From: a virus
IMG/VR virus record: IMGVR_UViG_3300009506_000026
Span: 1 to 63,152 of that record
Strand: one strand, 5' to 3'
Length of the DNA stretch: 63,152 bases
Part shown: piece after piece, positions 7,343-60,675 of the stretch
Layout of the letters: every line of letters starts with the position of its first letter
Numbering within the stretch: position 1 is the first letter of the stretch
Position numbers and translations under genes: made by a program
The notes under the pieces: model-generated
Database searches by the model: none
Seen by the model: the letters and a program-made list of their open reading frames with translations, nothing else
What the model was told of the DNA's origin: nothing

Positions 7343-7360
7343 GGAACGCGATTTTTTCTC

Positions 7361-7389: not shown

Positions 7390-7423
7390 AACAATAACTG
7401 CAAAATACCTCAGGAGGAAGATC

Positions 7424-8301: not shown

Positions 8302-8309
8302 CAATCTAT

Positions 8310-8337: not shown

Positions 8338-8347
8338 GGAGAAAAAG

Positions 8348-8917: not shown

Positions 8918-8924
8918 GTGCCCC

Positions 8925-9590: not shown

Positions 9591-9593
9591 ACC

Positions 9594-31478: not shown

Positions 31479-31479
31479 T

Positions 31480-34615: not shown

Positions 34616-34626
34616 CTTCGGTTTCC

Positions 34627-35331: not shown

Positions 35332-36059
35332 AGCTTAAAATCCTCGATTCTCTGTGAAAGTTTATTATGTCGGAACAAATTTGCATGGATTTGTGCCATG
35401 CGAAATACCTTTAATCTGTCTCTCCAAATTGTCTCCGCTATTTTTTCGTTGTAAACATAGTGCTTCCTTGAAGGAAGCATCATTTGTAATACCTCACTTT
35501 TAACAATATGGGGATTAAATACATAGGTATTTTTTACCTCTTCAAAGATCGTTTGTGAGGTATCCAATAAACCCTTTTGATCCCTTTTATAGTCCCAATA
35601 GAAGGGAACTTCTGGCTTAACCAGGTCCTTATGCTTCCCATAAATAACAGTATCATAATTAAAATATTTGCATTCCTTCCATGATCGAAGTCGTATGCAT
35701 CCAAAATCTTTGAACACCTCAAAGAACTTAAAAATAAAATTAAGATAATAGGTCAAAGGCTCGCAACAAATAAAATCATCCTCCATATACATACAAAAAG
35801 GGGTGTCTTCTTTCAGACAGGCCCTCATTACTTGGACGTGTCCCCAGCCCCCTCCTCTATTTTCCTCAAACGAAATTACCTCTTTGAATTGTCCCTCATA
35901 TTTTGCTACCACATCCAATGTATCTTTTTCCACCGACTGAATACAAATTTTAAAGATAAAAGTGTCCAGACAATCTCTATTCAAATGGAAGAACGAGTCC
36001 AAAGTCTTATCCAATATTTGTGGTCGTTTGCACGTAAGAAAACCTACCGCAATTTTCAT
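35328..36059 (-). CDS. GT2-like glycosyltransferase, 243 aa
   Basis: KIAVGFLTCKRPQILDKTL starts the fold; FCMYMEDDFICCEPL contains the metal-site DD. KEVISFEENRGGGWGHVQVMRAC is the typical loop between donor and acceptor parts. The C-terminal third is basic and helical. Coupled by 4-base overlaps to both neighbours. Similar in size and motif to 30747-31478, suggesting a duplicated pair of sugar transferases. Confidence 0.75.
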   Translation of the reverse strand: MKIAVGFLTCKRPQILDKTLDSFFHLNRDCLDTFIFKICIQSVEKDTLDVVAKYEGQFKEVISFEENRGGGWGHVQVMRACLKEDTPFCMYMEDDFICCEPLTYYLNFIFKFFEVFKDFGCIRLRSWKECKYFNYDTVIYGKHKDLVKPEVPFYWDYKRDQKGLLDTSQTIFEEVKNTYVFNPHIVKSEVLQMMLPSRKHYVYNEKIAETIWRDRLKVFRMAQIHANLFRHNKLSQRIEDFKL

Positions 36060-36997
36060 AAAAAATTCCTATGCCTTAATGGAGTGAATCTTTTGTCCCT
36101 AACCTTCTCATACACTTTAGCATAATTTATATATCGACAGGATCCACAGATTCTAAGATCGGGTTTAAATTGATTCCTTCTTGCCCAAATATCTTCCAAG
36201 CTTTCCTCGTTCACATCCCCTATAATAAAATCAGGATTTCCTCTATGAACACAACAATAATAAACCTTGCCATTCGCTCCCACCTGACCTATTAGACCTG
36301 CGATTTGACAAGGGAGATTGGAGTCCAATTCTACCGAATATCTATCAACCTTAAATAACCCCTCATCTGAAATGTTCCTCATTGTACTTTCAATTCCAGA
36401 GATTTTCCAAGCAGGTTTTATTTGTGCATAAGATACTCCCAATGATTCCGCTAGTTCTCTAAACCCCTCAACCTCCTGTTTATTTTTCTCCGTGACTACC
36501 ATACTTAACCCTACATCTGTTTTCCCTACACACATTCTTACATTCTCTATAACCTCATCGAAAACATTGTTTCCTTTTATGGCTTCGTATGTTTTAGGAG
36601 TAGCCGCATCCAAACTAATCCTAATAAATTGAAACTTGTCAAGCACCCCCTCCACCCGATCCAAAAATATTCCGTTTGTTATTAACCCAATTTCTAAACC
36701 TAAATCGTAAGCCGCCCAAATCATCTTCTCCGCAAAAGGATTTGTTAATGGTTCTCCCCCACCCGACAATGTAATGGATTTCGCTTCCATTTGGTACACT
36801 TCAAAAATGACATCACTAAATGTAGACCATGTCATTACCGAACGATCCTTGTTTAGATAATTCTTGTAATGACAAAAATAGCACCTATTCTGACAAGTAT
36901 TAGCAATGTCAATTTCACAGGTTACAAAGGGCTGTCTTTTCCCTTCTATTATCCTATCTGTTTCCTTTAAAAAATTTAGAATCTTGAAATCCATCAT
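36056..36997 (-). CDS. Radical SAM/SPASM-domain enzyme, 313 aa
   Basis: CQNRCYFC (CxxxCxxC) near residue 35 coordinates the 4Fe-4S cluster; SGGGEPLTNP is the SAM-binding GGE region. The C-terminal third has further cysteines (PCQIAG, YYCCVHRG, ICGSCRYI), the SPASM-type auxiliary-cluster region. Such enzymes modify peptides or sugars. In a glycan island it could create an unusual sugar or modify a protein. It overlaps the acyltransferase gene by 44 bases. Confidence 0.78.
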   Translation of the reverse strand: MMDFKILNFLKETDRIIEGKRQPFVTCEIDIANTCQNRCYFCHYKNYLNKDRSVMTWSTFSDVIFEVYQMEAKSITLSGGGEPLTNPFAEKMIWAAYDLGLEIGLITNGIFLDRVEGVLDKFQFIRISLDAATPKTYEAIKGNNVFDEVIENVRMCVGKTDVGLSMVVTEKNKQEVEGFRELAESLGVSYAQIKPAWKISGIESTMRNISDEGLFKVDRYSVELDSNLPCQIAGLIGQVGANGKVYYCCVHRGNPDFIIGDVNEESLEDIWARRNQFKPDLRICGSCRYINYAKVYEKVRDKRFTPLRHRNFL

Positions 36998-37769
36998 CTT
37001 CCCACTCCACGTAATTTTTTCCTTTATGTGAATAATATCGAAATCTAATACCTGCTCTCCTCAACAAGTTTCTAAATCTTTCGGTGTCTCCCGTCACAGG
37101 TCCCACTATTTTACGGTCATACACGCTGAAAAAAGTATCCCCTATTCTAAAAATAGGACCATCTTCCTTAAATTCAAAATCCTTTTTGAATGTTCTCCTT
37201 AAATGAGTAACTAATAAATTAAAATTGACCTCCTCTTTGGGATAAGCATTTTCTTTTTTTATCTCAACTGGGATTCCCGCGGCAAAACAGAAATCAGGTA
37301 AATCTTTATTTACTAAGGACATTGCGGCTACCATCACTCCCTTTCCAATAGTGACCCCAGGATTCACCCAAGCATGTGGCAGCCAGGAAAAATGTCGTAT
37401 CTCTACAGGAGCAAATTGAAAGGGGTATCCCCAATCATAGGGAGCATAAGCACCATGTGTCCAAATATTGGACTGATGTCCTATTCCCACCTCATGCCAT
37501 ATTTTCACTCTACAAGCGGTATTGATATGAGCAAATCGTCCTAAATGCAAAAAGTCCCCTGCGATCAATTCCGATGTTTCCTCGAAACAACTACCCCCTC
37601 CTATCCAACTATATTCATGAATCCAAGCCTCTCTACCGATTATTACCGATCTACCCTCGATCTTAGCATAATCGTTAATCACACTACCATCACCAATTTC
37701 AAAATGTTCGGTGACATTGATCGTGGCTTTCGGACTTATTCTAACATTTTCTCCCTGTTGCCATCTCAT
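36954..37769 (-). CDS. Left-handed beta-helix acyltransferase-like protein, 271 aa
   Basis: Start at the ATG at 37769 (GAGGTGGCTATT upstream). Repeated hexapeptides appear throughout the first 180 residues (ATINVTEHFEIGDGSVI; KIEGRSVIIGREAWI; VNPGVTIGKGVMVAAMSLV), the LbH fold of sugar O- and N-acetyltransferases, followed by a separate C-terminal domain of about 90 residues. The catalytic His may be in IWHEVGIGHQSN. Likely acetylates a sugar in the island's glycan. Confidence 0.78.
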   Translation of the reverse strand: MRWQQGENVRISPKATINVTEHFEIGDGSVINDYAKIEGRSVIIGREAWIHEYSWIGGGSCFEETSELIAGDFLHLGRFAHINTACRVKIWHEVGIGHQSNIWTHGAYAPYDWGYPFQFAPVEIRHFSWLPHAWVNPGVTIGKGVMVAAMSLVNKDLPDFCFAAGIPVEIKKENAYPKEEVNFNLLVTHLRRTFKKDFEFKEDGPIFRIGDTFFSVYDRKIVGPVTGDTERFRNLLRRAGIRFRYYSHKGKNYVEWEDDGFQDSKFFKGNR

Positions 37770-38392
37770 AATAGCCACCTCTTTACTTCAAAGGCTTCGG
37801 CGTATTTACATCCACATTCTGATCCTCTGACCCGAGCTTTTGCTTCTATCGCTTCTATGGATCTTTGATGTGGAAACTCCCTCATCTCACACACAATTTT
37901 TTCCAAAGTGAGTAATTTTTTGTTCATAAATTTTTCAATGTTCACATATAGATTAGGAGCAAATGTTGTGGAACCCCCTAAATATTCACAACATAAAAGA
38001 CCTACCGGTCTTCCATAACACCTTGCTTGCACCAATGCACTCTTAAATACAATCCTATGATCCTCATTTATATCATGCTCAGAATGAGTAATAATTAAAT
38101 CAAATTTCAGCCCCAACGATTCAAATCTTTTATTTAATTCCAACTGACCATATTTATCAAATTCCATTGTAGGGATATTCAAAAAGAAACAATTACTCAA
38201 TGGAACACCTAAACACGTGGCAATCTTTTCCGATTCCTGTCTATAACTTACTCCTGGTCTTCCATGAACAACAATCCCATTATTTGCCCAAACAATAAAT
38301 ACTTGATGATTCTCCGAAATAAATTTGGCTATAGTTCCCCCACAATACAAAATCTCATCATCCACATGAGCCACATATACCACGATGTTCAT
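37766..38392 (-). CDS. PIG-L/LmbE-family deacetylase, 208 aa
   Basis: Start at 38392 (GGTGGA upstream). The metal-binding motif AHVDDE (8-13) and the second motif HSEHDINEDHR are hallmarks of the PIG-L family, which removes N-acetyl groups from GlcNAc-type sugars or their conjugates. In a glycan island it would give a free amine for further substitution, possibly by the neighbouring acyltransferase. Short overlaps with both neighbours. Confidence 0.88.
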   Translation of the reverse strand: MNIVVYVAHVDDEILYCGGTIAKFISENHQVFIVWANNGIVVHGRPGVSYRQESEKIATCLGVPLSNCFFLNIPTMEFDKYGQLELNKRFESLGLKFDLIITHSEHDINEDHRIVFKSALVQARCYGRPVGLLCCEYLGGSTTFAPNLYVNIEKFMNKKLLTLEKIVCEMREFPHQRSIEAIEAKARVRGSECGCKYAEAFEVKRWLL

Positions 38393-38970
38393 TCCACCAA
38401 ACCTTTTCCAATATCGTAATACATTACACAAAACCTACCAAGCTTATCCAATGTGTATTGCTTTATATTCAAATGTGAATAATTATAGTTGCTCATAATC
38501 GTTCCTATCCTACGAGCAATCACCCCTTTGTGAAAATCATCCACAACCAAATAAGTTCCCGTATTAACAAATTGGGATAAAACTGTTTCCAAATACTTAT
38601 GTCTATGCCCAGTAACATCGATATCATAAAAGATCAGATCAAAGGCTTTATTGGCTCCTTTTATCTCTGGCCAAATAAAAAAACCTTCGCTTCCCAATTC
38701 ATGCTTCTTAGAGAAAGCTTTACTTTTCTGTAGCCATCCTTTATTGGCATCCACAGACCAAATATCTGTATCCAAATTATTCCTCTTTTTATACAATCGA
38801 AAGGCACAACTGCTTATTCCACTACCAAGATCCAAGATACTCTCCGCTTGTTTTCTCCTGAACATTCTCATCAAAAATAAACAGCATTCTAAGGATGCCG
38901 CCATTCCTGATATCGTACTTGTATATTCTTCATGAATCGCCGTAAACTCTTCCTTCAATTGTTCATCCAT
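38389..38970 (-). CDS. SAM-dependent methyltransferase-like protein, 193 aa
   Basis: SILDLGSGISSCAFRL is the SAM loop and IWSVDANKGWLQ the acidic second strand; IFYDIDVTGHRHKYLE and YLVVDDFHKG fit the Methyltransf_24-type family. Target likely a sugar hydroxyl or a small metabolite. It lies between a GT-B enzyme and the PIG-L deacetylase with overlaps at both ends. Confidence 0.72.
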   Translation of the reverse strand: MDEQLKEEFTAIHEEYTSTISGMAASLECCLFLMRMFRRKQAESILDLGSGISSCAFRLYKKRNNLDTDIWSVDANKGWLQKSKAFSKKHELGSEGFFIWPEIKGANKAFDLIFYDIDVTGHRHKYLETVLSQFVNTGTYLVVDDFHKGVIARRIGTIMSNYNYSHLNIKQYTLDKLGRFCVMYYDIGKGLVE

Positions 38971-40096
38971 TGATCATCTCATATTCTTCTAGTAAAGATT
39001 GAATTCCTTGTGATGGGTCACTCGCCGTCAACATGGTGAAAAGTTTTTTCATTTGGGGCAAAACGACCTGCTCTATCCCGAACGATCTTTCATAATACAT
39101 ATACACACTCGTTTTGTCTGAGAAGTCTCGGGATCCAAGTTCTCCTTTAATCACACGGGCTATTTGTCTAAAGTCATCACTGTTATTTATGACTGTGCAA
39201 ACATCGGGGTTGGAAGATATTAAAGGATGGTGTCTATGTGGGAAGGACATAATCACTCGGGTTCCACATCGGAGAGCCTCAAGAGGTCCTCTATCATTTT
39301 GTCCATGTCCCCCTAAAAATAACGCCAACTTGGATTTATTCAAAATCTCACAAACTTCATTTCGGGGAACCATCCCTGTCATTCTAATTCTCAAATCATG
39401 ATCCAAAATATCCTGTAGGATTCCATTTGTAAATGTACCATGAGTTTTTCTGCCCGGGAGAATACAATTAAGCTTTTCCCCATATAACTTTTGGTACTCA
39501 ATCGCCACCTTCACCCCTCTCCATTGAGCCTTCTTGTCATGAATATGTGAACACCCAATACACACATCATAAATCTTAGGGGTCTTGATTGGACGAAAAA
39601 TGTAAGGATTCACTGGCTTTCTAAAATCTAAAAACAATCTGTTGTTCCTTCGGTCATACCAGTCCTTGCCACTTAAATCATCAAACACAATATCCCAAAA
39701 TTTCCACCTTTGTCTTCCCGTATTTGCAGCATATAAAAGTAACCAATGCTTTCCCTTCAATTCATTCAACAGATTAAACCAACTACGAAATCCCCCTCTT
39801 GCCCAAATAATATCTCCCTCCTTCAAAAACTCTCTCAGAACTTCAAAATGAGGGATCACATAACACTGGTGTCCTTCCAACGATGTTTGTCCTGTATTTC
39901 TTCCTGACTCCGCAAAGATCAAAACATCGTCAACGATTGCCTCCTCCTTCATCCTTTTTATTATTTGGAAGTATCCTTCAGTACCAAGACCGGAGTTCTC
40001 TCTTAGATACTCACAATGGGATTTCTTTCGTCTATCCCAAGGTTGATTCACCTCTCCACAACTGCCCCCCATATATATAAAAATCAACCTATTCAT
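38963..40096 (-). CDS. GT-B glycosyltransferase, 377 aa
   Basis: Start at 40096, the ATG that overlaps the sulfotransferase stop. The C-terminal Rossmann domain shows IYDVCIGCSHIH, LNCILPGRK, then a donor-binding helix region (KLALFLGGHGQNDRGPLEALRCGTRVI), with the GPLEAL corresponding to the GT4 EX7E region. Probably transfers from a nucleotide sugar. N-terminal domain diverged. Substrate unknown. Confidence 0.72.
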   Translation of the reverse strand: MNRLIFIYMGGSCGEVNQPWDRRKKSHCEYLRENSGLGTEGYFQIIKRMKEEAIVDDVLIFAESGRNTGQTSLEGHQCYVIPHFEVLREFLKEGDIIWARGGFRSWFNLLNELKGKHWLLLYAANTGRQRWKFWDIVFDDLSGKDWYDRRNNRLFLDFRKPVNPYIFRPIKTPKIYDVCIGCSHIHDKKAQWRGVKVAIEYQKLYGEKLNCILPGRKTHGTFTNGILQDILDHDLRIRMTGMVPRNEVCEILNKSKLALFLGGHGQNDRGPLEALRCGTRVIMSFPHRHHPLISSNPDVCTVINNSDDFRQIARVIKGELGSRDFSDKTSVYMYYERSFGIEQVVLPQMKKLFTMLTASDPSQGIQSLLEEYEMING

Positions 40097-40839
40097 TTCA
40101 TCCACGTATTTTTTATTACTCTTTCTTCTAATTTTCTGTAATCCAACAAAGGTAAAGGCGCTTTTATTCTATTTTTATGATTATAGATTCTACCACAAAT
40201 GAACCGATGGTCTCTTAGTTTTATTTTCTCTGGGTCTCCCAACTCTAAAAAATTAGCAATCCTGTTAAAATTCCCTTTATCCTTTATCATATTCGCTGAA
40301 ATGTAGATCGCCTTCCCACCCCCTCTCTCCACCTCTCTTTTATATTTTCTCATACGATGCTCAATCTCCAAAGTATACCAATAACAAAGCTCGTAAGGAG
40401 TTCTTCTTTTCCAATCACCCAGTCTTGTTACATTCTCAGGGTGAGAAGGCGATATCGCAAATATATTTCCCCTTTCAGTCGTCCCTGGAATTAGATCCAA
40501 TGATAAAAAACTTTTTGCTATCTTCCTTCGATTTCTCTTGATCAATAATAAATCAGGCACATAACCTAAATCCAATAAGGGGTAGAAAAAATACTTACAA
40601 AATCCATGACTCATTTCCATGTAAATTTCTCTCCCCTCTACCAAATTCTCAATGGAGGGAAGTTTCTCTGTCCTTAAAAAGGTTCTGAAATCATCAAAAG
40701 TTTTGTTTTCATGAGAGAAGTGGATAAAAGAGGGGAAGGGCTCGTGGTAGGAAGCGACTTTTCGAAAAAGACCAAAAAGAATAGACAAGAATCTTGTCCC
40801 TGTTCTCCCAGCCGTTACTGTAAAGATCATTCTTTTCAC
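40093..40839 (-). CDS. Sulfotransferase-like protein, 248 aa (GTG start)
   Basis: FTVTAGRTGTRFLSILF is the 5'-phosphosulfate-binding loop (the sulfotransferase version of a P-loop, 7-23); HEPFPS and LLIKRNRRKIAKSFLS (3'-phosphate-binding region, Arg/Ser) follow. Enzymes of this fold transfer sulfate from PAPS to sugars, proteins or lipids. In this setting sulfation of a glycan is likely. Follows a 90-base gap with a long hairpin. Start at GTG 40839 (AAAGGAAAG upstream); an ATG nine bases later is possible. Confidence 0.75.
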   Translation of the reverse strand: MKRMIFTVTAGRTGTRFLSILFGLFRKVASYHEPFPSFIHFSHENKTFDDFRTFLRTEKLPSIENLVEGREIYMEMSHGFCKYFFYPLLDLGYVPDLLLIKRNRRKIAKSFLSLDLIPGTTERGNIFAISPSHPENVTRLGDWKRRTPYELCYWYTLEIEHRMRKYKREVERGGGKAIYISANMIKDKGNFNRIANFLELGDPEKIKLRDHRFICGRIYNHKNRIKAPLPLLDYRKLEERVIKNTWMK

Positions 40840-40929: not shown

Positions 40930-42195
40930 TTACCAAGCCTGTATTGCCTCCTGCATTACTGGAGCATAATATCTAAAATAAAGTGAATCCATGTTATAGG
41001 TCTGTCGGCAAAATGTCTTTACCTTTAACACCTCACTTTGTCTCAGTCTCGCCACAATTGTATGAGCAATGGCGGCCCAATATTGCTCATTAGGGGGATT
41101 AAAATTTCTATGGAAACTACCAAACTCAAAATACAGAGCCTCGTGATTTGTAATCTCCACTTGGTTATCTAAGGATCTATTTAAAACTAACAAGGTGCCC
41201 GAGGCGGCGGCTTCGGGCACCACTAAACCAAAACTCTCCTCTCTTGTTGGAAAAATGAAAAGATTACTTAATAGAAATAGTTGGGATATCATGTGTTTGG
41301 GAATGCCTACATCATATTTGGGTGACTCAAATTCAGAAGTAAATATAATCTCCTTTCCCACAAACAATCCCTTTTCCTTTGCAATTTGCTTGTACCTATC
41401 AACATCTTCCTTCTGTTGTTTCCCTGTTGCCCATTGACAAGCTACTACTAAACAAATCGAAAAACCCATTGCCTTTAACTCACTAAAGATGGTGATTACT
41501 TCGGCAACCCTTTTAGCCTCAAGTCTATCAACGGAAGCAGGGAGCAATTGCACAATATCCGCTTGCATTACGGAAGGGTTTTGATCTATGAATCGCAGGG
41601 TATCTTCGTGGAAATCAAAGAAGGTTCTTGGATCTTTTATGTGTGGGATTATTCTCACATTATCATCCATCCCCCTGTACTGCTCCGCCACTCTTGTTCT
41701 ATAGGAAGCAGTAGGGAATACCAACTTATGATTTTTTCCATATGTCTGGATGTTCCACCAATCTCTCGCCACGGAGGGCATACTGTGAATCCAATGTAAC
41801 CACCGGGTATCAGGCATTCTTCTACCCACTTCAATGCAGGCTAAACCATAAGGCAAATTCCACCCAGTGAACACAAAATCATGTGTAAAGATGATTTTAA
41901 TCCCCGTTGATTCCAGTTCTTTGCAAAGAGCATTTGCAGTAGTATTAACAAGGAGCTTATGCTCGGCGGACATTTTGTATTGACTTTTGTAATCAACAAG
42001 GTGAGAGAAGGGAATTGATTTGTGCAAGGTTACTTCGGCAGGGAAAGTTTCTCCATTGTACCCCGAATTTACGAATAAGTGAACCTCATGCCCATGCCTG
42101 TTGAGCATCATTACTTGATCCTTCACGATGCCTGTTAGACTGTAGCCGGGCTGAAATTCCATGAACGTGGTTAGAATCGCAACTTTTTCTTTCAT
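40930..42195 (-). CDS. GT4-type glycosyltransferase, 421 aa
   Basis: I chose the ATG at 42195 behind AAGGAGAAAAAA; the ATG at 42210 lacks a clear site. EVHLFVNSGYNGE is the N-terminal Rossmann region; VVACQWATGK, FIFPTREESFGLVVPEAAASG (EX7E) and the later DNQVEITNHEALYFEF give the GT4 C-terminal domain. It is the first gene of the island after the predicted promoter (42266-42238). Sugar unknown. Confidence 0.85.
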   Translation of the reverse strand: MKEKVAILTTFMEFQPGYSLTGIVKDQVMMLNRHGHEVHLFVNSGYNGETFPAEVTLHKSIPFSHLVDYKSQYKMSAEHKLLVNTTANALCKELESTGIKIIFTHDFVFTGWNLPYGLACIEVGRRMPDTRWLHWIHSMPSVARDWWNIQTYGKNHKLVFPTASYRTRVAEQYRGMDDNVRIIPHIKDPRTFFDFHEDTLRFIDQNPSVMQADIVQLLPASVDRLEAKRVAEVITIFSELKAMGFSICLVVACQWATGKQQKEDVDRYKQIAKEKGLFVGKEIIFTSEFESPKYDVGIPKHMISQLFLLSNLFIFPTREESFGLVVPEAAASGTLLVLNRSLDNQVEITNHEALYFEFGSFHRNFNPPNEQYWAAIAHTIVARLRQSEVLKVKTFCRQTYNMDSLYFRYYAPVMQEAIQAW

Positions 42196-42237
42196 TTTTT
42201 TCTCCTTCATTATGATTGAATTCCTAAGTTTATTTTC

Positions 42238-42269: not shown

Positions 42270-45200
42270 TTATGAATAGCCCTGACATTCATACATTGAT
42301 ATTTCGGCGCACCCCGACTGGTAACTTCCTCCTCCCTGAGCTTCCGTGATTCTCCATCTATAATATTCATAATTTATCCCATTCGGAAATATCCAAGACT
42401 TTTCCTCTCCTTGTGCCCACGATAGTCCAGATTGACTATAGACGGTTGATTCCTCTCCTGAAAAATCTCCTGTACTTGAACCCTCCAGTACCCAAGACTT
42501 GGGAGCATACCCTATCGGTAATGGAGCCCATCTAATTACCAACCGCTCAATGTTCTTTGAGGCTGTTAAATGAAGTTTAATCCATGCATCTGCCGTTCCT
42601 ATGGTATCATAGGACATCCAAGCAGTTGTCTGATTGTCATCCGTCGCATTATCATCAATATAGGTGAGATATTCACTGCTGCTGCTAATTGTACTGCCTG
42701 TGGCACAATCCGATCCCCAGTCCGTACAATCCTCTGGTCCATAAAGAGTTGTTGTAGTAGTTGAGGAACAGGTGCTAGTACTCATCGTGGAACTTGTAGT
42801 TGAAAGTGTGGAACTTGTCGAGCTTGTAGTGGACAAAGTGCTGGTGGTTGAAGCTGTGGAACTGGAAGAACTGGTCGAACTCTGTGTAGAAGTGGTAGAC
42901 AAAGTGGAACTGCTAGAGCTTGTTGTAGACAACGTGCTTGTAGTTGAGGCTGTGGAACTGCTAGTAGTCGAACTTGAAGTGGTAGTTGTGGAACTTGTCG
43001 TTGTTGAAGTTGAACTAGTGGTGGACAAAGTGCTGGTTGTCGAAATTGTGGAACTGCTGGAGCTTGTTGTGGAGGCTGTGGAACTGCTGGTCGTAGTTGT
43101 TGAAGTAGTGGAACTTTGTGTTATAGATGTTGTGGTAGTCGAACTGCTTGAACAGGTCGTGGTGGTAGATGTAGTAGTGCTTGTGGTTGTAGAAGGATAC
43201 GTTGTTTCTGTTGTGGTAGTCGAACTGCTTGAACAGGTGGTTGTCGTACTGGAACTGGTCGTTGATAGGGTGCTTGTCGTGGACAAAGTGCTTGTGGTTG
43301 AAATCGTACTTGTGGTGGTAGATGTTGTGGATGTTGTCGTTGCCCCCGTTTCAGTCCAAGACTGATTATATAATTCAATATTAAATAGATACATTGGGTT
43401 GTGGTTACCGAGAGGTGTTGCAAATTCCAAATATTGCAAATCTCCTCTATTAAGCCAATTAAGATCAATCGTCCAATATTGAGTCCATTGAGGTAAAAGT
43501 ACATTGTAAATTACAGGACCAGAAGTGGTTCCTATCGTTAACCACGTATCCGCAGTAGGTGTTTCTAAGGGGTAAAAGGTTAATCTTATCTTTGCAGGTC
43601 TTAAATTATTTGCCCAATTTCCCTTTACCGACAACTTTGATACATGCATATCCCCCAAATGTGCATCTGGGTTATCATTAAATTCCCAATAATCATAATC
43701 ACCGTGCCAGGAAACCGATATGGGAGTTTCGGGTCCAGCTTGAACAGGCTCCCAACGATGATTGTCAAAAAATGAGGACCAGGGTCCTGCATACTCCACG
43801 TGTAGTTCCGCAGCATTGGTGGAATCGTAATTCTCATCCCCTGTCGCTGAATCTACCGTCATTCCCCCCCATTCATCCTCATTTAAAACTACATCTCTAT
43901 CCGATTTTACAATAACAATTAAATTTCCCCCATATCCTGGTCTGTTTATCACCTCCTGCAAAGATTCTGAAAAATCCACAGACCAAAACCATTCATGTTC
44001 ATTGGCACTTCGTATAAAAGACCATTTGGTACTAGCTGAGGTCAAAGGAAGAGCGTTATACTCCGCAATAGAAGTAGGGGCGACAGGATCATCCGCATCC
44101 ACCAAAAAGATTTCGGCAAAGGCGGAGCCCCCCTCAAGAACTGAGGAATAAGAAAAAGCACTTAATTTTAATCTTGAAGAAATAATAAGACTTTCCGGTT
44201 CAATATCTACATTTATGAATCTAAAAAAGGCATCATAATTATGAACAGTACCAGAATCGTTATCAGGACCAAAAATGATATTCCCAGTGGAGTTAAATGT
44301 TAGTTCTGTAATATGTCCATCATTTGCATTTCCTCTAACTTCCCAATAATCACTTGTCGAAGCGATTATCTTCAAAGAGGAGGAAGTCTGCCGACACTCT
44401 ATTTTTGCCCCCCTCGTACTTTGCACTATTCGGGTAACTCTGAACTTAGTGTACTCACTTATACATTGATTCAGTAGATCACGATCAAAGATTTCAAAAG
44501 GGGTAAACTCAAATTGGATAATATCCCCTTTATCAATTTCTGATAAATAGTCCCCACCATCAAATTCACAAATCAATCGAGGTTGTCTGTTTTCTCCAAG
44601 TACCCACCCTGCAAAAGATAGGGCCTGTGATTCCCCAACAACAAAATCTAAATCTATTGGTTCCCCTGTTAATTGACCATAAATATCTTGACTATCTGCA
44701 TCCTCTACCTCTATTACACTTTTTGACTTCTCAAGTTCTGATTTATTTCTTTCGGACCACTCTTTGGCATAGCTAATTAAAAATCGATTTCTAAGTTCGG
44801 AACGCTTGGTAAAACGCGATCTTGCGGTATTAAGAAAAATTCTCCCCTCATTGATCGTCTTATCGGAAGTGGTATTATCTGGGATATACTTTAGATGGTG
44901 CTCACCTAAACTATGGAACCAAGCACTCTTAGCTTGAAAAGCTATATTGGATACTAATTCCAGGACGTTCGGCGCTTCCGTTATAACTACTCCAAGAACA
45001 ATCGCTTCCGCCACGTAATTGGTGTGTGCGGTATTAAAATCAGCATTAAAATTATCTACCGACTCTCCACAATAATTAATCAAAAAATGTTGAATAATTT
45101 TCCCTGGGTATTCCAATAACTGACCCGATATTCCATACCCCCTACTTTGAATATCTGCTGATACTCTACCCCCTAATACTGTGTCCGCCACACTGTTTCC

Positions 45201-46736
45201 CGTTATATCCACAGTGCCAACTTTTGTGACATTCGAGGTTGTTTCTAATGGCTCAGTCTTAAATTCTATCCAAGCCAAAGAAACAAATACATATCCTAAG
45301 GAATTGCTCCCCCCTCTTAATAGGTCTCCTGTTAAATTATTTATTTTATCCCATGTGTCACACAAAGAATTAACATTATACCAATTACTTTTGAAGGTTC
45401 CCGTTGTACTTTCTTGAATATATCTATTAGCCCATGTAAATTTCATGTTGCAGTTGTTATCTATAAATGGAATATGCATACAAAGACGAAATTGAAGGGG
45501 TGTCTTGTCAGGAATCTCATACATTGCCTTACTGAGTTCCACTTCACACCCCGCATTTTTTATTTCCCCCCAATCCGTCAAGTTACCATTAACCAAATTC
45601 TCAGGAAAATTTACCCATCCCCCAGAACTGATTTTTTCAGCTATTTCAAATTCCCAAACTTCATATAAATCCTCGCCATGAGCATGACCCCCATCATTTA
45701 CATCAATGGAATCATCTACCTCTATATTAAACTGCTTTTCTATAGAGGGTTTCGCCGTAAATTTAATTACAGCCATCCCGGGGTAATCCTCATGTTCATC
45801 CCCCGTTTGCCCCGTATAAGCCACAAAGTTAGTAATCTGTCGTACCCATTCACCCGTGGTTCGATTCTCAATATAAATGGCATCAAACGATTTTATTGGG
45901 TGGTCCATAGCGAAAAGATACTCAGTTTGTATTTCCGCTATAGTCGTGCCTGCTTTATGTTCCGCCTGTGTAGTTTCCGCATACCCTCGAGAGCACCCCA
46001 TAAAAGAATTTCCTGAAATGTAGCTATAACTGATTTGTTCAAAATCAAGTTGTATAACTCCCCCTCCAACTGGAAACTTTGAGGTGTCCGTCGATTCAAA
46101 AAATGAAACACTGTCGCTAATATCTGCCACCAATGAGGTTAATGATCCCGAATCTACCCCCAAAAAAGGCATCTTTAAAATTCTACCATAAGCGATGGGG
46201 AATAACTTACCAACATCGTCAGGGTCCGCGCCGGGGTAAGACTCGGAAGTACAAAAGTTTCCCTGAAATTTATTTATTAGGGACACCTCGTTGGAAGTCA
46301 AATAGACCCTAACTCTGTCCACTCCTTCATTCTCAACATCCTCTATTTCTCCCTTAAAAATTAAATCCTTATCCTCAGCAGCCGAAGCCCCCTCAAAAAT
46401 TCGATAAATACTAACGGAGGAATACATAGGAGGAGAGGAACCAAATAACAAAGAAAAATTTCCCAAAGTTCCAATACTTACATTATTTGCCACCACAAAA
46501 CTTGCATTGCCTGGATCAGGGGTGCTTCCATCAAATCTAATGTCTCCTGAATCAAGGTCTCCCCATTCGAGTACTAAAGGTTCATAAATTTGTGAATTAA
46601 AAATAAAAGTAGAAGTACCAAACAATCTGTCACATAGATAATAGGTAGAGGAATCAAGAGTGATTTCGACAAGCCAAATAGGCTCCGTATGAGGAGAATC
46701 GATCTTTGTTTGATTAAAGGAACTTAGAGTTTTCAT
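42270..46736 (-). CDS. Tail-tip/receptor-binding protein with mucin-like linker and C-terminal discoidin-like domain, 1488 aa
   Basis: Residues 1-1130: long beta-rich structural region typical of tail-tip proteins, opening with SFNQTKIDSPHTEPIWLVEI. Residues about 1133-1330 are almost all Ser/Thr with a few Leu, Ile, Cys and Ala (42747-43340 in DNA). The C-terminal domain (about 1331-1488) has CTDWGSDCATG and then a jelly-roll resembling F5/8 type C (TAWMSYDTIGTADAWIKLHL; YYRWRITEA), a carbohydrate-binding fold. Cysteines near its ends may pair. It follows the distal tail gene by a 4-base overlap. A receptor-binding function is likely; the Ser/Thr linker is a candidate for O-glycosylation. 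Confidence 0.72.
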   Translation of the reverse strand: MKTLSSFNQTKIDSPHTEPIWLVEITLDSSTYYLCDRLFGTSTFIFNSQIYEPLVLEWGDLDSGDIRFDGSTPDPGNASFVVANNVSIGTLGNFSLLFGSSPPMYSSVSIYRIFEGASAAEDKDLIFKGEIEDVENEGVDRVRVYLTSNEVSLINKFQGNFCTSESYPGADPDDVGKLFPIAYGRILKMPFLGVDSGSLTSLVADISDSVSFFESTDTSKFPVGGGVIQLDFEQISYSYISGNSFMGCSRGYAETTQAEHKAGTTIAEIQTEYLFAMDHPIKSFDAIYIENRTTGEWVRQITNFVAYTGQTGDEHEDYPGMAVIKFTAKPSIEKQFNIEVDDSIDVNDGGHAHGEDLYEVWEFEIAEKISSGGWVNFPENLVNGNLTDWGEIKNAGCEVELSKAMYEIPDKTPLQFRLCMHIPFIDNNCNMKFTWANRYIQESTTGTFKSNWYNVNSLCDTWDKINNLTGDLLRGGSNSLGYVFVSLAWIEFKTEPLETTSNVTKVGTVDITGNSVADTVLGGRVSADIQSRGYGISGQLLEYPGKIIQHFLINYCGESVDNFNADFNTAHTNYVAEAIVLGVVITEAPNVLELVSNIAFQAKSAWFHSLGEHHLKYIPDNTTSDKTINEGRIFLNTARSRFTKRSELRNRFLISYAKEWSERNKSELEKSKSVIEVEDADSQDIYGQLTGEPIDLDFVVGESQALSFAGWVLGENRQPRLICEFDGGDYLSEIDKGDIIQFEFTPFEIFDRDLLNQCISEYTKFRVTRIVQSTRGAKIECRQTSSSLKIIASTSDYWEVRGNANDGHITELTFNSTGNIIFGPDNDSGTVHNYDAFFRFINVDIEPESLIISSRLKLSAFSYSSVLEGGSAFAEIFLVDADDPVAPTSIAEYNALPLTSASTKWSFIRSANEHEWFWSVDFSESLQEVINRPGYGGNLIVIVKSDRDVVLNEDEWGGMTVDSATGDENYDSTNAAELHVEYAGPWSSFFDNHRWEPVQAGPETPISVSWHGDYDYWEFNDNPDAHLGDMHVSKLSVKGNWANNLRPAKIRLTFYPLETPTADTWLTIGTTSGPVIYNVLLPQWTQYWTIDLNWLNRGDLQYLEFATPLGNHNPMYLFNIELYNQSWTETGATTTSTTSTTTSTISTTSTLSTTSTLSTTSSSTTTTCSSSSTTTTETTYPSTTTSTTTSTTTTCSSSSTTTTSITQSSTTSTTTTSSSTASTTSSSSSTISTTSTLSTTSSTSTTTSSTTTTSSSTTSSSTASTTSTLSTTSSSSSTLSTTSTQSSTSSSSSTASTTSTLSTTSSTSSTLSTTSSTMSTSTCSSTTTTTLYGPEDCTDWGSDCATGSTISSSSEYLTYIDDNATDDNQTTAWMSYDTIGTADAWIKLHLTASKNIERLVIRWAPLPIGYAPKSWVLEGSSTGDFSGEESTVYSQSGLSWAQGEEKSWIFPNGINYEYYRWRITEAQGGGSYQSGCAEISMYECQGYS
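42747..43340 (-). repeat. Ser/Thr-rich low-complexity tract, tail-tip protein
   Basis: About 198 codons of Ser and Thr with a few Cys, Leu, Ile, Glu, Pro and Ala. Synonymous codons (ACA, ACC, ACG, ACT, TCC, AGC, AGT and others) are mixed, so the DNA is a degenerate repeat rather than a simple trinucleotide run. This argues that amino-acid composition is under selection. The segment TTTTCSSSSTTTT occurs twice. Confidence 0.9.
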
Positions 46737-52264: not shown

Positions 52265-52906
52265 TTACGCAGTGGTTGTGGTAGTCGTAGTGGTTGTGGT
52301 AGTTGTGAAGGTCGAGCCGTCATTCCAAACAATTTGTCCCAACGGCTTGTCATCCCAACACGCATTTCCACCACTAATTTCCGAATCAGCCCTTTTAGCC
52401 TCAATTCGAATTGCAACCGCAGCAGGTTCCTCAGGAGCAAAGTCCATCTCAATTGAGGCGGAAACCTGTGCCCTGGGGAAGATAATGTTCATGGTATTGG
52501 TACCATCAGGATAAGTATAAATTGCTTCCATCCTGATATACTCCGCGGATGCCAAAGTACCAAGAGCAATTTTCCCTGTGTGTGCTGCGGAATATGCAGC
52601 ATCAGTGGGATCCAAACCACGAGCAAGCGCCATGTTCTTTGGAGTGATTTCTTTGAAAGCACATTCCAAAGCAGCCTGCTCACGAAGTGGGAAAACAGCA
52701 TCTTCCAACATAGGAAAACCTGATTCCAACTTGAAGAACTCCGTATTACCTACAAAACGAGTGTTTGCAAGTGCTCCAATAGAATCTGTGGAGGACAACC
52801 ATGGAGTTTGTTTTGTCAGATACGTGGCAGAAGCTGCCACTCTGACCTGAGCCAAACCCAATGCTACTGTAGTGGTATCTCTTGTTACAGGACCAGTTCT
52901 TGCCAT
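52265..52906 (-). CDS. Major tail tube protein with poly-Thr C-terminus, 213 aa
   Basis: Position (upstream of chaperones and tape measure) and size fit the tube protein; the body is beta-rich (TRFVGNTEFFKLESGFPMLEDAVF; MNIIFPRAQVSASIEMDF). From residue about 200 the chain is twelve threonines then Ala, ending TTTTTA. The threonine codons are ACA, ACT, ACC and ACG in mixed order, so the tail is not a simple trinucleotide expansion. Two other virion proteins end the same way. The tail could extend from the tube surface as a glycosylation site. Confidence 0.75.
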   Translation of the reverse strand: MARTGPVTRDTTTVALGLAQVRVAASATYLTKQTPWLSSTDSIGALANTRFVGNTEFFKLESGFPMLEDAVFPLREQAALECAFKEITPKNMALARGLDPTDAAYSAAHTGKIALGTLASAEYIRMEAIYTYPDGTNTMNIIFPRAQVSASIEMDFAPEEPAAVAIRIEAKRADSEISGGNACWDDKPLGQIVWNDGSTFTTTTTTTTTTTTA

Positions 52907-55140: not shown

Positions 55141-55313
55141 GTTACTGTCCTTGGATCCACAGATGTTGATTCGCCCTTAGGAAGCCCATTCTTTAAAATA
55201 CCACAATAACCACATTTAGGGCAAACGCAAAGGGTTTCTCCACTTGTATTTTTTTGGTCTTCCACCACAAACTCAGTCTGACAAACAGGACAAATAATAA
55301 TTAGTCCATTCAT
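55137..55313 (-). CDS. Small zinc-ribbon protein, 58 aa
   Basis: ATG 55313, stop at 55139-55137. Starts in the stop of the fiber-tail adaptor gene (ATGA) and ends in the start of the next. The product opens MNGLIIICPVC and continues with LCVCPKCGYCG, giving two Cys pairs for one zinc. Unknown function; the start couples it to the upstream structural gene. Confidence 0.6.
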   Translation of the reverse strand: MNGLIIICPVCQTEFVVEDQKNTSGETLCVCPKCGYCGILKNGLPKGESTSVDPRTVT

Positions 55314-55621
55314 ATTAAATCCTGAACTTTAAAGAAAACCATGTATTCCTTATAATTGTTACCACTACTTTGTACCTTACAAATTACATAGTAACCTTCT
55401 CCGTCGGTTCCATTTTGAACATAGATTCTTACAATTGAACCACTATAGGTACACTTGTTGGAATCTAATATAGTAGTGGAAACATCTACACCGTCTTCGT
55501 CATAGGCTTTAAAAGTTACATCGGAAATAGTTTCTTCGTCTAGCCATGTAGAAATATCAATATCTATATAATATTTTTCCCATGTAGTTTTAGGTTCAGT
55601 TACGGAAAAGCTTTCCCCCAT
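55310..55621 (-). CDS. Fiber-tail adaptor-like protein, 103 aa
   Basis: YYIDIDISTWLDEETISDVTFKAY and SIVRIYVQNGTDGEGYYVICK match the short Ig-like 'phage fiber-tail adaptor' type domains (ISxWLxxETIxxVxF...G.DGxxYxVxC). It directly follows the 729-residue Ser/Thr protein, so together they may form a surface fiber at the neck. Good start behind AAAGGAGATTACA. Confidence 0.65.
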   Translation of the reverse strand: MGESFSVTEPKTTWEKYYIDIDISTWLDEETISDVTFKAYDEDGVDVSTTILDSNKCTYSGSIVRIYVQNGTDGEGYYVICKVQSSGNNYKEYMVFFKVQDLI

Positions 55622-55633: not shown

Positions 55634-57823
55634 TCATGCAACAAATCTATTCCTGGCATTCTCCGCAGTAAAAATTGCCCTCGCATTTTCCCCCACAAAT
55701 TCATTTCTATTAGTTTTTCCTTCAAACTCGGTATGTGGTTCTATCGACCAATCCATAGTAACGGTAGTTGTTGTGGTTGAACTACTGGTCGAAGAGGTCG
55801 AGGAACTCGTTGTTGAAGCTGAGGTGCTTGTGGTAGAGGAAGTTGAAGCAAGCTGTGTTACTGTTGTTGTGGTCGTTGAACTACTTGTGGTTGTCGAGGA
55901 AGTTGTTATGGTACTACTCGTCGTTGTGGACAGAGTTGTTGAGGTCGAACTGGACGACGAGGATGAAGTCGAAGTTGAGGAAGTTGTTGTAGTTAAAGTT
56001 GAACTGGATGACGAGGAAGAACTTGAGGATGAGGTTGTTGTGGTCTCACTGGTACTAGTAGAAGTTGAAACAGTTGAACTCGAGGTCGAGGAACCTGTTG
56101 TCGAAGTCGAAGTTGAGGAAGAAGTGCTTGAAGTAGTGGTTGTTGTAGCCGAACTCGAGGTAGTCGTCTCGGTTGAGGAAGTTGAGGTAGATGAAGTTGT
56201 TGTGGTTTCCGTCGTGGACGTACTCGAGGACGTCGAGGTTGAGGTCGTTGAACTAGTAGAAGAACTGGTAGAAGAACTAGTAGAAGAACTGGATGAGGTC
56301 GAACTAGATGAGGTTGTAGTGCTCTGAGTCGTGGCTCCTGGCTCGGTAGTTGAAGTACTTACGGTGGAACTAGTCGTGGTGCTCTGAGTTGTGGTACTTA
56401 TTGTGGAACTTGTCGAACTCAAAGTTGAGGTTGAAGTCTCAGTAGTCGTGGTGCTTGTAGAAGTAGTGGATGAAGTACTTGAACTAGTGGAGGAAGATGT
56501 TGAGGTAGAGGAAGAACTTGTGGTACTTGAAGATGACGAGGTCGTGGTCTCAGTAGTCGTGGTGCTTGTAGAACTCGAGGTGCTGGACGATGTTGTAGAA
56601 GCCGAACTCGAGGTAGTTGATAAAGTAGAAGAGGTTGTAGTGGTTAAAGTGGTAGTAGTTGCAGAGGAGCTTGTAGTTGTTGTAGAGGAAGAGGAGGTCT
56701 CTCCCGGCTCCGTCGTGCTGGTTGTTGTCTCAGTACTGGTTGTGGTTGACGAAGTTCCCGAAGTGCTTGTGGTCGAAGTATGTGAGGTCGAAGTTGTGGA
56801 ACTCGACGTGGTAGACAAAGTTGAGGATGTGGAGGCTGTGGAGCTTGTGGTTGAAAAAGTTGAAGATGTGGTGCTAGTTAGCGTCGAACTAGATGTGGTT
56901 GTGGAAGAGGAGCTTGTGGTTGAACTAGTCGAACTAAAGGAAGTTGAAGTTGTTGTGGTTGAGGTTGATGTTGTCGTACTGGACGTGGACGACGAAGTAG
57001 AGGAGCTTGTGGTTGAAGTTGTCGTACTGGACGTGGACGATGAAGTAGAGGAACTGGTAGTGGACAGAGTGGAGGACGTGGTCGAAAATGAAGAAGTAGT
57101 TGTTGAGGACTGGGTGGTTGTGGAAACCGTTGAACTTGAAGTCGAAAGAGTGGAACTTGTAGTGGACAAAGTTGAGGTTGTGGTTGAGGTGCCCGAAGTT
57201 GATGTTGTCGTACTGGACGTGGACGATGAAGTAGAGGAGCTTGTGGTTGAAACAGAGGTGCTTGAACTAGAGGATGAACTTGTAGTGGTACTACAAGATG
57301 TTGTGCTATACGTTGAACTGGTAGTTGAAGCTGTGGAACTCGAGGTGCTACAAGATGTTGTGGTTGAGGTGGAGGATGAGGTGGTACTAGACGACGAAGT
57401 AGAGGAACTTGTGGTTACTGTTGTAGTTGTGGTTGTAGTGCTGGAAGAACTTGTTTGTGGAGCAGCAACCGTAACATCTACAGGTGTAGTTGTATACTCC
57501 GTTAAATCATCCTCAATTAATTTTATTCTAACTTGAAACGAACCAGTAGTACCATCATTATAAACAGTTAGCTGTTGTTCATCCGTTGTTTGAAGGCCCG
57601 TTATGGGATTGGTTTCGGAGGAAATATTAAGGGCGCCAGAGGAACCAAGACTTGTCCAAGAACCTACTCCTTGGTCCCACTCAAAATACATATCACCCGA
57701 TTCTGCCCAACCACCACTGCCCGAAGTGGTAATCGCACCCCCCATCAAAAAACTGCCACTGGGTTCCAGTTCCGGATCCACCGTGGGGCGGGGCATTGTT
57801 ACGCCGGTGATATTAGTGGACAC
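55634..57823 (-). CDS. Mucin-like Ser/Thr-rich virion protein, 729 aa (GTG start)
   Basis: Residues about 1-120 form a beta-rich globular domain (SGSFLMGGAITTSGSGGWAE; SFQVRIKLIEDDLTEYTTTP). Residues 124-688 are nearly all Ser and Thr with scattered Glu, Gly, Pro, Leu, Val and His. The last 41 residues carry short repeats (NEFVGENARAIF, TAENARNRFVA). The long tract is too simple to fold and resembles eukaryotic mucins, which are densely O-glycosylated. GTG start follows GAGGTAAGAA. Lies between the connectors and the fiber-tail adaptor, so I expect a neck or head fiber. No enzyme motif is present. Confidence 0.75.
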   Translation of the reverse strand: MSTNITGVTMPRPTVDPELEPSGSFLMGGAITTSGSGGWAESGDMYFEWDQGVGSWTSLGSSGALNISSETNPITGLQTTDEQQLTVYNDGTTGSFQVRIKLIEDDLTEYTTTPVDVTVAAPQTSSSSTTTTTTTVTTSSSTSSSSTTSSSTSTTTSCSTSSSTASTTSSTYSTTSCSTTTSSSSSSSTSVSTTSSSTSSSTSSTTTSTSGTSTTTSTLSTTSSTLSTSSSTVSTTTQSSTTTSSFSTTSSTLSTTSSSTSSSTSSTTTSTTSSSTSSSTSSTTTSTSTTTTSTSFSSTSSTTSSSSTTTSSSTLTSTTSSTFSTTSSTASTSSTLSTTSSSTTSTSHTSTTSTSGTSSTTTSTETTTSTTEPGETSSSSTTTTSSSATTTTLTTTTSSTLSTTSSSASTTSSSTSSSTSTTTTETTTSSSSSTTSSSSTSTSSSTSSSTSSTTSTSTTTTETSTSTLSSTSSTISTTTQSTTTSSTVSTSTTEPGATTQSTTTSSSSTSSSSSTSSSTSSSTSSTTSTSTSSSTSTTETTTTSSTSTSSTETTTSSSATTTTTSSTSSSTSTSTTGSSTSSSTVSTSTSTSETTTTSSSSSSSSSSSTLTTTTSSTSTSSSSSSSTSTTLSTTTSSTITTSSTTTSSSTTTTTVTQLASTSSTTSTSASTTSSSTSSTSSSTTTTTVTMDWSIEPHTEFEGKTNRNEFVGENARAIFTAENARNRFVA
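55760..57454 (-). repeat. Mucin-like Ser/Thr tract, 565 codons
   Basis: A run of degenerate 9- to 24-base repeats encoding Ser/Thr with occasional Glu, Gly, Pro, Leu, Val, Ala, Phe, His and Gln. All Thr and most Ser codons occur, in irregular order. The opposite strand is also open and gives Val/Glu-rich polypeptides; those are shadows of this one. Confidence 0.9.
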
Positions 57824-57868: not shown

Positions 57869-58543
57869 CTAAGCTGTGGTTGTGGTGGTAGATGTGGTGG
57901 TGCTTGTAGTAGTGGAAGTAGTCGTCCACTGCCGAGTATCTTCACCCACATCTAAGACATTCATCCCAGAATATCTTCTTTTCTTAATCGTTTCCACCCT
58001 TAGAAACGATCCATCTGAAAGCCTGATTCTATCATTTATTTGAATATCGATAGATTCAGGGAGATACATTTCATGGTTTTCTATCCCAAGAAGACCAATT
58101 TCCTCATCAGTATCCAAACTATTCCCGTATAAGGGGGTAGTCAGTAGAGCATCTACAGAAGAATCGATTAGGGTCCAAATGGTCCTTGATCGATACGAAG
58201 CAGGATCATCTATCTCAGAGGGCCTGAGAATCGAAATAACTTCATTTGTCTTGTAAAGAACGACATCATATTGAATCACGGCATCCTCGAACATTCTTGC
58301 CGTGCGGTTCATCACGTAGAATTTGTCCGAGGTTGTAACAAACTGGATCAGATCACCCCCCACCATTTCAGTATTATAGGCAGCCGCAGCCTCTAAGAAG
58401 AACTCACGTATAAAGGGTTTGGTGACTTGAGCATTTGGCTTGTAAGCCAAATATTCTCCCGTCACATTTCCGGAATCTCGGATAATAATAAAAGAGGTCC
58501 CAACCTCAGGAAGGACCTCGGCTATGTCGGGCCCTATTGTCAA
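57869..58543 (-). CDS. Neck/head-tail protein with Thr/Ser C-terminal tail, 224 aa
   Basis: Beta-rich body (SFIIIRDSGNVTGEYLAY; QFVTTSDKFYVMNRTARMF; SFLRVETIKKRRYSGMNV), then a tail of Thr and Ser from about residue 206, ending STTTTTA. The last six residues are identical to those of the capsid and tube proteins. It overlaps the preceding gene by 4 bases, which is typical of head-tail connectors. Codons in the tail are mixed. A role in the neck is inferred from order. Confidence 0.65.
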   Translation of the reverse strand: MTIGPDIAEVLPEVGTSFIIIRDSGNVTGEYLAYKPNAQVTKPFIREFFLEAAAAYNTEMVGGDLIQFVTTSDKFYVMNRTARMFEDAVIQYDVVLYKTNEVISILRPSEIDDPASYRSRTIWTLIDSSVDALLTTPLYGNSLDTDEEIGLLGIENHEMYLPESIDIQINDRIRLSDGSFLRVETIKKRRYSGMNVLDVGEDTRQWTTTSTTTSTTTSTTTTTA

Positions 58544-59346: not shown

Positions 59347-60675
59347 TTAGGCTGTGGTAGTTGTCGTGCTGCTGGACGAAGTTGTAGTGGTTGAGGTCAG
59401 AGTGTCAGTGTAAAGCGACTTGACATCCAACGTGTAGATAGCATCCCTATTTTTGATAATAGGAAGACCTTTATCCTGAACACGAATCCAAACACCTTCA
59501 GGATCCCACTCGTACTTATCGTCCACCTTCTGTCCCCATTGTCGAGGCAAGGAGAAGGGAGCTTCCATGTACTTAGCAATTGGCATTCCATCAACTGTGG
59601 ATGCCATCATCAGGAACTTGTCATTGGGAATGTAATACTCAGGCATGAAGACCTGATCCTCCCCTGCCTTGTAAGACGAAGCAGGAGGATAGGATAGTTG
59701 GATTCTATTGGTTTCCGTCTCCACTGACTTGATATAGCAGTACTCATAGGTTCCTTCAGATACATCCAAGAACCTTACTTTCCCACCAGCCTTAAAATCA
59801 GAAACATCATCCAGTGTTATCCAAGTAGTTGATCCCCCCGTTACCGCTGCAACCAACCAAGCTTTGACCTCATACATTTCATCATAGACGATGAAGTTCG
59901 GGATATTCAAGATTCTTCCCAAGACCTGAACATTCACCCCCACAATTTCATGCAGGTTGCCCCCGTACAAATTCCCAGGGCCACCAGGGCCACCAAAATA
60001 GCTGTTATACAGAAGTTGACGGATAGTGGTATCATTCCCAATGTATTTCAGCACATTACTATTGCACATGGCAACATCGACGACTCCACCACAGTCCTCT
60101 TTGATCTTGGTCTTGCCGTCCTGAATATCACTGAGAATGTTTTTACTTCCACCGTTGTCCCAGTTATAAGCGGAAGCCAAAGTCACACGATGATCGGAGG
60201 GAATACCATAGTCGATAGTAACTTTGTACCCACCTTTCACCGCATAGGAGAAACCATTATTGAAAAGCATTTGGACAAACATCCATTCTTTTCTACGGTC
60301 ACTCCTGTTTTTTAATCCCGCCAGTTCCTCAGCCAATTTTTGCTCCGCAGCATGGTAATCCGCAGTCGTTCCGGGTTTTCGAAGATTGTTAAGGAATTCC
60401 TCATCAAAATACATCTTCTCTTTCCAGAAAGCCGCCGTGGCTGAATGCTGTGCGATTCCATGGGGAGCCGTTACCTGAGCAGGTGCCCCAGGAGCGGCGA
60501 ACGGGGTCATTCCACGCCCTCCCCTTTGGCTTTCCCATTTAATATCGGCAGATGCGGCTTGACTTGCCGTGAACCGATTCATAAAGAACAATTCCGGTGG
60601 AGTCATGAAAGTTCGCATGAAATCTTCCAGGACTTCCAACCTAAGAATAGGAATATCAGCAGTTCCTCTTGGCAT
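59347..60675 (-). CDS. Major capsid protein with Thr/Ser C-terminal tail, 442 aa
   Basis: Position after scaffold and decoration proteins and size fit a major capsid protein. The body includes FMRTFMTPPELFFMNRFTAS, EEFLNNLRKPGTTADYHAAEQ and later GNLYGGNLHEIVGVNVQVLG and the KFLMMASTVDGMPIA segment (similar to phage major capsid proteins of the lambda gpE type). The chain ends TLTSTTTTSSSSTTTTTA. The six final residues are shared with the tube and neck proteins. If displayed on the capsid surface, the tail would give hundreds of Thr/Ser sites per virion. Codons are mixed. Confidence 0.8.
   Translation of the reverse strand: MPRGTADIPILRLEVLEDFMRTFMTPPELFFMNRFTASQAASADIKWESQRGGRGMTPFAAPGAPAQVTAPHGIAQHSATAAFWKEKMYFDEEFLNNLRKPGTTADYHAAEQKLAEELAGLKNRSDRRKEWMFVQMLFNNGFSYAVKGGYKVTIDYGIPSDHRVTLASAYNWDNGGSKNILSDIQDGKTKIKEDCGGVVDVAMCNSNVLKYIGNDTTIRQLLYNSYFGGPGGPGNLYGGNLHEIVGVNVQVLGRILNIPNFIVYDEMYEVKAWLVAAVTGGSTTWITLDDVSDFKAGGKVRFLDVSEGTYEYCYIKSVETETNRIQLSYPPASSYKAGEDQVFMPEYYIPNDKFLMMASTVDGMPIAKYMEAPFSLPRQWGQKVDDKYEWDPEGVWIRVQDKGLPIIKNRDAIYTLDVKSLYTDTLTSTTTTSSSSTTTTTA

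Follow-up and report, generated by a model that had tools for sequence, protein, structure and literature searches.

A mucin-like protein is encoded among the virion genes

The window (i.e. the whole 63,152-nucleotide stretch of IMG/VR record IMGVR_UViG_3300009506_000026) contains a minus-strand open reading frame, running from a GTG start at 57823 down to 55634, whose product has 276 Ser and 271 Thr residues (547 of 729). The following features were delineated for this protein and for the gene beside it.

55634..57823, minus strand: mucin-like protein, 729 aa, 75% Ser+Thr; same sequence in locus L045
57455..57823, minus strand: N-terminal domain of the mucin (aa 1-123), a module common to two other phages (L046, L047) and joined there to other repeats
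55757..57454, minus strand: Ser/Thr tract of the mucin (aa 124-689), 566 aa, 511 of them Ser/Thr
55637..55756, minus strand: C-terminal short repeats of the mucin, NEFVGENARAIF / TAENARNRFVA
55310..55621, minus strand: 103-aa protein, directly downstream of the mucin

A preliminary description had reported a 729-residue protein, about three-quarters Ser/Thr, with a repeated tail; these points were confirmed, with the gene on the minus strand and a separate N-terminal domain also present. The repeated tail spans ~40 residues and ends ...EFEGKTNRNEFVGENARAIFTAENARNRFVA; its repeat pattern was absent from every other locus examined except a second contig of the same phage. Only two prolines occur in the 566-residue tract, i.e. 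the protein has the extended Ser/Thr-rich domain of PTS-domain mucins but not their proline-rich PTS repeats. A scan of the window detected no Rfam family and no tRNA.

All four Thr codons, as described previously, and all six Ser codons are present in the tract in proportions similar to those of neighbouring structural genes (Thr, P = 0.065; Ser, P = 0.31). This ordinary codon use indicates that composition has been selected at the protein level, as had been proposed. Repeated DNA 18-mers numbered 54 as compared to 0.3 in synonymous shuffles, and 24-mers 23 as compared to 0, indicating that the tract also grew in part by segmental duplication with its composition kept. A DNA-level microsatellite was rejected by the codon use as the main cause of the tract and retained as a partial mode of growth. 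An assembly artefact was rejected since two assemblies agree across the tract: contig IMGVR_UViG_3300010413_000240 is 99.994% identical over 15.7 kb and carries the same tract, the single mismatch falling outside the mucin gene. The claim that this is the longest Ser/Thr tract holds within the window but not among relatives, where tracts of 614 residues (L122) and at least 889 residues (contig of L150) were found. The latter belongs to an incomplete protein of at least 960 aa at the contig end of the L150 record (L185:1-2880, minus strand), in which STFST-type sites dominate (54 Phe).

Two phage contigs unrelated to the window have counterparts of the N-terminal domain at 63-70% identity, with values of 69% for L046 and 66% for L047. 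The L046 copy precedes a different repeat and stands directly upstream of a portal-like gene; in L047 (9998-14156), the domain is joined to a long serine-rich (SESA)n repeat (647 aa) with a GT2 gene directly after. These differing partners indicate a module that carries varied repeat arms. An AlphaFold model of the domain, with three sequences as input, had a pLDDT of 45 and no fold was assigned; a phmmer search against the PDB returned chance-level matches only. The 103-aa protein has a weak 22-aa match (E = 0.002) to a C-terminal domain fused to the Ser/Thr tract in L122, which is treated as a lead only.

Other structural proteins carry Ser/Thr tails or tracts

Examination of all open reading frames of the window identified four further proteins with Ser/Thr tracts.

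59347..60675, minus strand: major capsid protein (Phage_cap_E) with Ser/Thr tail TSTTTTSSSSTTTTTA at about 59350-59418
57869..58543, minus strand: putative neck (head-closure/connector) protein with Ser/Thr tail WTTTSTTTSTTTSTTTTTA at about 57872-57934
52265..52906, minus strand: tail-tube protein with Ser/Thr tail TFTTTTTTTTTTTTA at about 52268-52324
42270..46736, minus strand: 1488-aa tail protein with an internal 208-residue Ser/Thr tract (about 42717-43350), then a C-terminal globular end

By profile matching, the capsid protein belongs to the HK97-fold Phage_cap_E family (Pfam, 100 bits against a curated cut-off of 22.9; also PHROG 29). The putative neck protein matched no family and no PDB profile, and is so named because of gene order only, its gene lying between the capsid and tail genes. 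This neighbour of the mucin had been described as fibre-tail adaptor-like; nothing supports a fibre adaptor, and the gene is instead a conserved virion gene ending in a Ser/Thr tail. The product of 52265-52906 had no sequence family match. Its AlphaFold model (pLDDT 75) matched the Mystique tail tube (Foldseek E = 3.7e-8; VIA Z = 15.7; rmsd 3.5 over 174 residues) and its gene lies ahead of the chaperone and tape measure genes, so that, on modelled fold and gene position together, this is the tail-tube protein. Residues 8-194 of the core fit solved tail tubes, the aligned ranges stopping at ~194-200 where the Ser/Thr tail starts. Lambda gpV aligns only to its residue ~157, ahead of its C-terminal domain, and because the alignment stops there the Ser/Thr tail of the tube is predicted to point outward. 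In the window, the capsid, putative neck and tail-tube proteins all end ...TTTTTA. Homologues of the 1488-aa tail protein with Ser/Thr tracts were found in L107, L108, L123 and L178.

The tails are all-or-none among relatives

Searches of viral contigs retrieved 43 loci by capsid and 80 by tube, with some records common to both; relatives with and without Ser/Thr tails are termed 'tailed' and 'tailless' below. At least two tails could be read in 90 loci, 60 with Ser/Thr tails and 30 without, and all three in 68 loci (51 with and 17 without); these counts take in near-identical contigs. No mixed case was observed in either set. The tails start exactly where the tailless homologues end (capsid ..DV/A; neck ..EDT/R; tube ..W/G). 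In a tree of 70 distinct tail-tube cores, a single branch (SH-aLRT 98) separated the 35 tailed tubes from all others, indicating that the tail set was gained or lost once. Within the tailed clade no loss from capsid, neck or tube was observed, despite divergence of the tubes to about 60-65% identity. Tail lengths range over 13-35 (tube), 16-48 (neck) and 23-73 (capsid) residues, and the codons of the tails are scrambled while their composition stays.

Ends of the tails were found to match within genomes. For the last six residues, agreement in the full set of 30 was 0.83, 0.83 and 0.91 within genomes as compared to 0.75, 0.76 and 0.78 between genomes (permutation P ≤ 0.0004); when the set was cut to 20, taken from separate branches, the values were 0.87, 0.87 and 0.93 as compared to 0.75, 0.74 and 0.75. 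Sharing of 4-mers and the Ser fraction of the tails mostly agreed with this matching, more weakly and with some comparisons not significant. Few DNA 9-mers were common to the tails (6-13% within and 4-5% between genomes). The tails with matching ends are encoded by unlinked genes, which we take to suggest that they have adapted to one partner shared in trans; gene conversion may also contribute to some extent.

The mucin is absent from the corresponding position in the other tailed relatives examined. Relatives have mucin-like proteins at other places, either upstream of the protease gene or among the tail-tip genes, and Ser/Thr proteins are encoded upstream of the capsid genes in L005, L122 and L179. 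A brush around the neck, which the preliminary description had pictured, is possible for the window mucin, gene order being what points to it; the other positions in relatives and the N-terminal domain common to unrelated phages do not favour this placement.

No cultured relative was found by tube, and the capsid had identities of only 22-29% to known phages. Five contigs were binned with MAGs; as all of these are of the tailless type and the phyla differ, no host is claimed. A third type of tail was present in L026-L038 on the same three virion proteins, with acidic, Tyr-rich ends (capsid, DLDEY/EPDEY; neck, VYDDG/EYGEY/DYEEEY; tube, GGDMV).

Other features of the window include a 7-deazaguanine DNA-modification set at 6240-12177 (i.e. 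QueD/PTPS, QueE-like radical SAM, GTP cyclohydrolase I, a glutamine-amidotransferase/QueC fusion and a second QueC-like protein), several genes of which are common to tailless relatives. A family A DNA polymerase (15045-17648) has an N-terminal uracil-DNA-glycosylase-like domain fused to the exonuclease and polymerase, and the contig end (1-166) contains a tandem array of 11 copies of a 15-base unit (83% match).

A recurrent pattern is present within the tracts

Across 14 tract-bearing proteins from the clade, lone hydrophobic residues were set in S-T-x-S-T in 115 of 170 distinct codon contexts, as compared to about 11 expected if Ser and Thr were placed at random. Before removal of duplicates, 93% of the 234 sites were directly preceded by T (-1) and 91% directly followed by S (+1). 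The central hydrophobic residue varies while the flanks are constant. The pattern is weaker in the window mucin (13 of 42 sites, counting any non-Ser/Thr centre). S-T-x-S-T could be an enzyme recognition pattern or a remnant of an old repeat.

These data bear on whether the tracts are neutral low-complexity expansions, arising by replication slippage or as assembly artefacts and without function. Segmental duplications within the mucin tract are of the kind that such expansion would leave, but the codon usage is ordinary and two assemblies agree; moreover, tails have been retained on three proteins across 35 distinct tubes and S-T-hydrophobic-S-T occurs well above the random expectation. We therefore regard neutral expansion as very improbable and, for the system as a whole, as refuted. 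The length of the tract in the mucin alone could still be largely neutral.

A glycosyltransferase cassette accompanies the tails

A cassette of glycan-related genes is situated downstream of the tail genes, with GT4 at the end nearest the tail genes and GT2 at the far end.

40930..42210, minus strand: cassette gene 1, GT4-family glycosyltransferase (Glycos_transf_1 above cut-off)
38963..40105, minus strand: cassette gene 2, GT-B glycosyltransferase (7 of 8 orthologues match Glycos_transf_1)
31480..32091, minus strand: cassette gene 3, methyltransferase
30747..31520, minus strand: cassette gene 4, probable GT-A glycosyltransferase (1 of 9 orthologues matches Glycos_transf_2, E = 0.01)
28918..29859, minus strand: cassette gene 5, GT2-family glycosyltransferase (orthologues at 49-63%)
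33878..40839, minus strand: variable accessory genes within the cassette, including the five below
38389-38970: accessory methyltransferase
37766-38431: PIG-L type deacetylase
36954-37778: hexapeptide acyltransferase
36056-36997: radical SAM/SPASM protein
35328-36059: GT25-like protein (weak match)

The alignment of cassette gene 4 contains a conserved EDDW-type motif. Orthologues of the GT4 gene, at 49-61% identity in tract-bearing records, were found by a record-by-record search; a single-sequence pattern search of viral contigs gave nothing. The ordered set GT4, GT-B, methyltransferase, GT-A-like and GT2 was complete in L006, L015, L107, L116, L122 and L126. In L112, the cassette continues up to the contig end and hence is without GT2, while at least GT4 was present in L003/L020, L147 and L178 and as a cut copy in L108. 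At its contig start, L110 holds the opposite end of the cassette, with GT2, the GT-A-like gene and part of the methyltransferase. Every tract-bearing contig that extends into the cassette locus has cassette genes; most tailed records without GT4 end before it. Two tract-bearing records, L014 and L150, extend >22 kb past the tube without a cassette, and both end inside tail-fibre genes.

No orthologue of the four cassette glycosyltransferase genes was detected in tailless records, including those of 86-92 kb that share replication genes; for GT-B, GT-A-like and GT2 this covers the tailless records examined over their whole length and part of L176, and for the other tailless records GT4 only. 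The nearest match to GT4 among these was a 27-29% paralogue in L176, a record that also has a 46-residue Ser/Thr tract in a tail protein. Weak matches to the cassette methyltransferase (25-34%) were present in some tailless records. Tails and cassette define a single clade, i.e. one change on the tube tree, and their association therefore counts as one evolutionary event. An acceptor/enzyme pair is compatible with this association but not proven by it.

Tailless relatives carry glycosyltransferases of other families, so that glycosyltransferases are not specific to the tailed phages. In several, a cassette lies directly after the neck gene, i.e. in the place of the mucin in the window; such genes were observed in G017/L018, G022/L023, G023/L024, G040/L041 and G042/L043.

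The cassette enzymes could act instead on host surface glycans or DNA. Under such a scheme, the tails and mucin would be unmodified, disordered Ser/Thr brushes acting through hydration and entropic exclusion, with the cassette directed at host surface polysaccharide or DNA. Composition alone would yield a hydrophilic brush, and the presence of glycosyltransferases in tailless relatives is in keeping with this proposal. A plain brush, however, needs neither a specific cassette nor sequences made almost wholly of hydroxyl residues, in which Gly, Pro, Asn, Lys and Glu are nearly lacking, and we consider this proposal unlikely.

A ClpP-like protease with a lipoprotein-like N-terminus is encoded inside the cassette region (33878-34615). 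Its presence, together with the matching last residues of the tails within genomes, would also fit tails that act as signals for assembly or processing and are bound or cut off in the course of morphogenesis; alternatively, Ser and Thr might accept another modification such as phosphorylation or acylation. No kinase was found among the proteins tested, the ClpP-like gene had no match in the other tract-bearing records examined, and tracts of 100-900 residues in the tail and mucin proteins exceed what a signal needs. Explanations of this type appear more doubtful still than unmodified brushes.

Comparison with known systems

For mycobacteriophages, capsid and tail-tube subunits are reported to bear O-linked glycans, made by phage genes, at their C-termini (Freeman et al. 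2023, in the accounts of PMC12619734 and PMC11652166), and, as described in the same two articles, virion glycans shield against antibodies. The same two virion proteins carry Ser/Thr tails here, where glycans are predicted from sequence, and phage-encoded glycosyltransferases are present in both cases. In contrast, the capsid, stopper and tail-tube proteins of Che8 lack such tails (0-15% Ser/Thr in the last 40 residues), the capsid ending FNKTGS and the tail-tube protein YSDGS. The window phage also differs in that its predicted acceptors are long and dedicated, in that a third protein, the putative neck protein, has a tail, and in having mucin-like proteins and a non-homologous GT4: with a threshold of E ≤ 1e-5, a tblastn search with the window GT4, which covered that gene alone, found nothing in 50,697 phage records, Che8 among them. 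In how it would work, the predicted virion glycosylation closely resembles the mycobacteriophage system.

Bacterial serine-rich repeat glycoproteins and animal mucins likewise have long Ser/Thr tracts between globular domains and adjoining glycosyltransferase genes, whereas the window mucin has no proline-rich repeat, lies in a virion gene context and has no homology to known families. Lambda gpV and its relatives similarly have a tube core followed by a C-terminal extension, which is a folded domain there and a Ser/Thr tail here. A literature search for Thr-rich or polythreonine phage proteins found nothing relevant within a coverage that excluded most subscription papers.

A predicted sugar coat of the virion

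Phage-encoded O-glycosylation of Ser/Thr acceptors across the virion, with the mucin as one of these, is the likely explanation of the tails, tracts and cassette, and a sugar coat probably extends from the head of these virions to the tip of the tail. The 'virion mucin' of the preliminary description is well supported as a reading, favoured by the Ser/Thr tails on three virion proteins, the tracts in structural-region proteins of relatives and the glycosyltransferase cassette; it had been seen as an isolated protein, however, and the system was missed. In the proposed mechanism, near-pure Thr/Ser tails would have been added to the C-termini of the capsid, neck and tail-tube proteins, and long Ser/Thr tracts to the 729-aa mucin and a tail-tip protein. 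We infer that the Ser/Thr residues are glycosylated and that this cassette is responsible: four glycosyltransferases, the methyltransferase and variable sugar-modifying genes would build methylated and otherwise decorated glycans on Ser/Thr, producing a sugar coat along the whole particle. The mucin, if part of the virion, would be an extended bottlebrush anchored by its globular ends, at the neck or elsewhere. Such a coat would probably mask virion proteins, keep the particle hydrated and protected, or adjust its binding to surfaces.

A more specific proposal, conceivable but somewhat short of an even chance, is a whole-virion glycocalyx with its own acceptor code, in which tails and S-T-(hydrophobic)-S-T tracts would be recognised by one co-evolving cassette, and head, neck, tube, tail tip and free mucins modified as a set. 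If true, this would be a way of glycosylating proteins, general and transferable, that works through short tags at the C-terminus.

To our knowledge, phage virion glycosylation is known from few systems. Here, sequence alone would predict it across a diverse uncultured clade, naming both the acceptors (head, likely neck, tube and tail-tip) and the enzymes. The all-or-none tails raise the question of why these virions should be coated everywhere or nowhere, and a tool for protein glycosylation could be developed from the five-gene cassette and its short Thr/Ser acceptor tags at the C-terminus.
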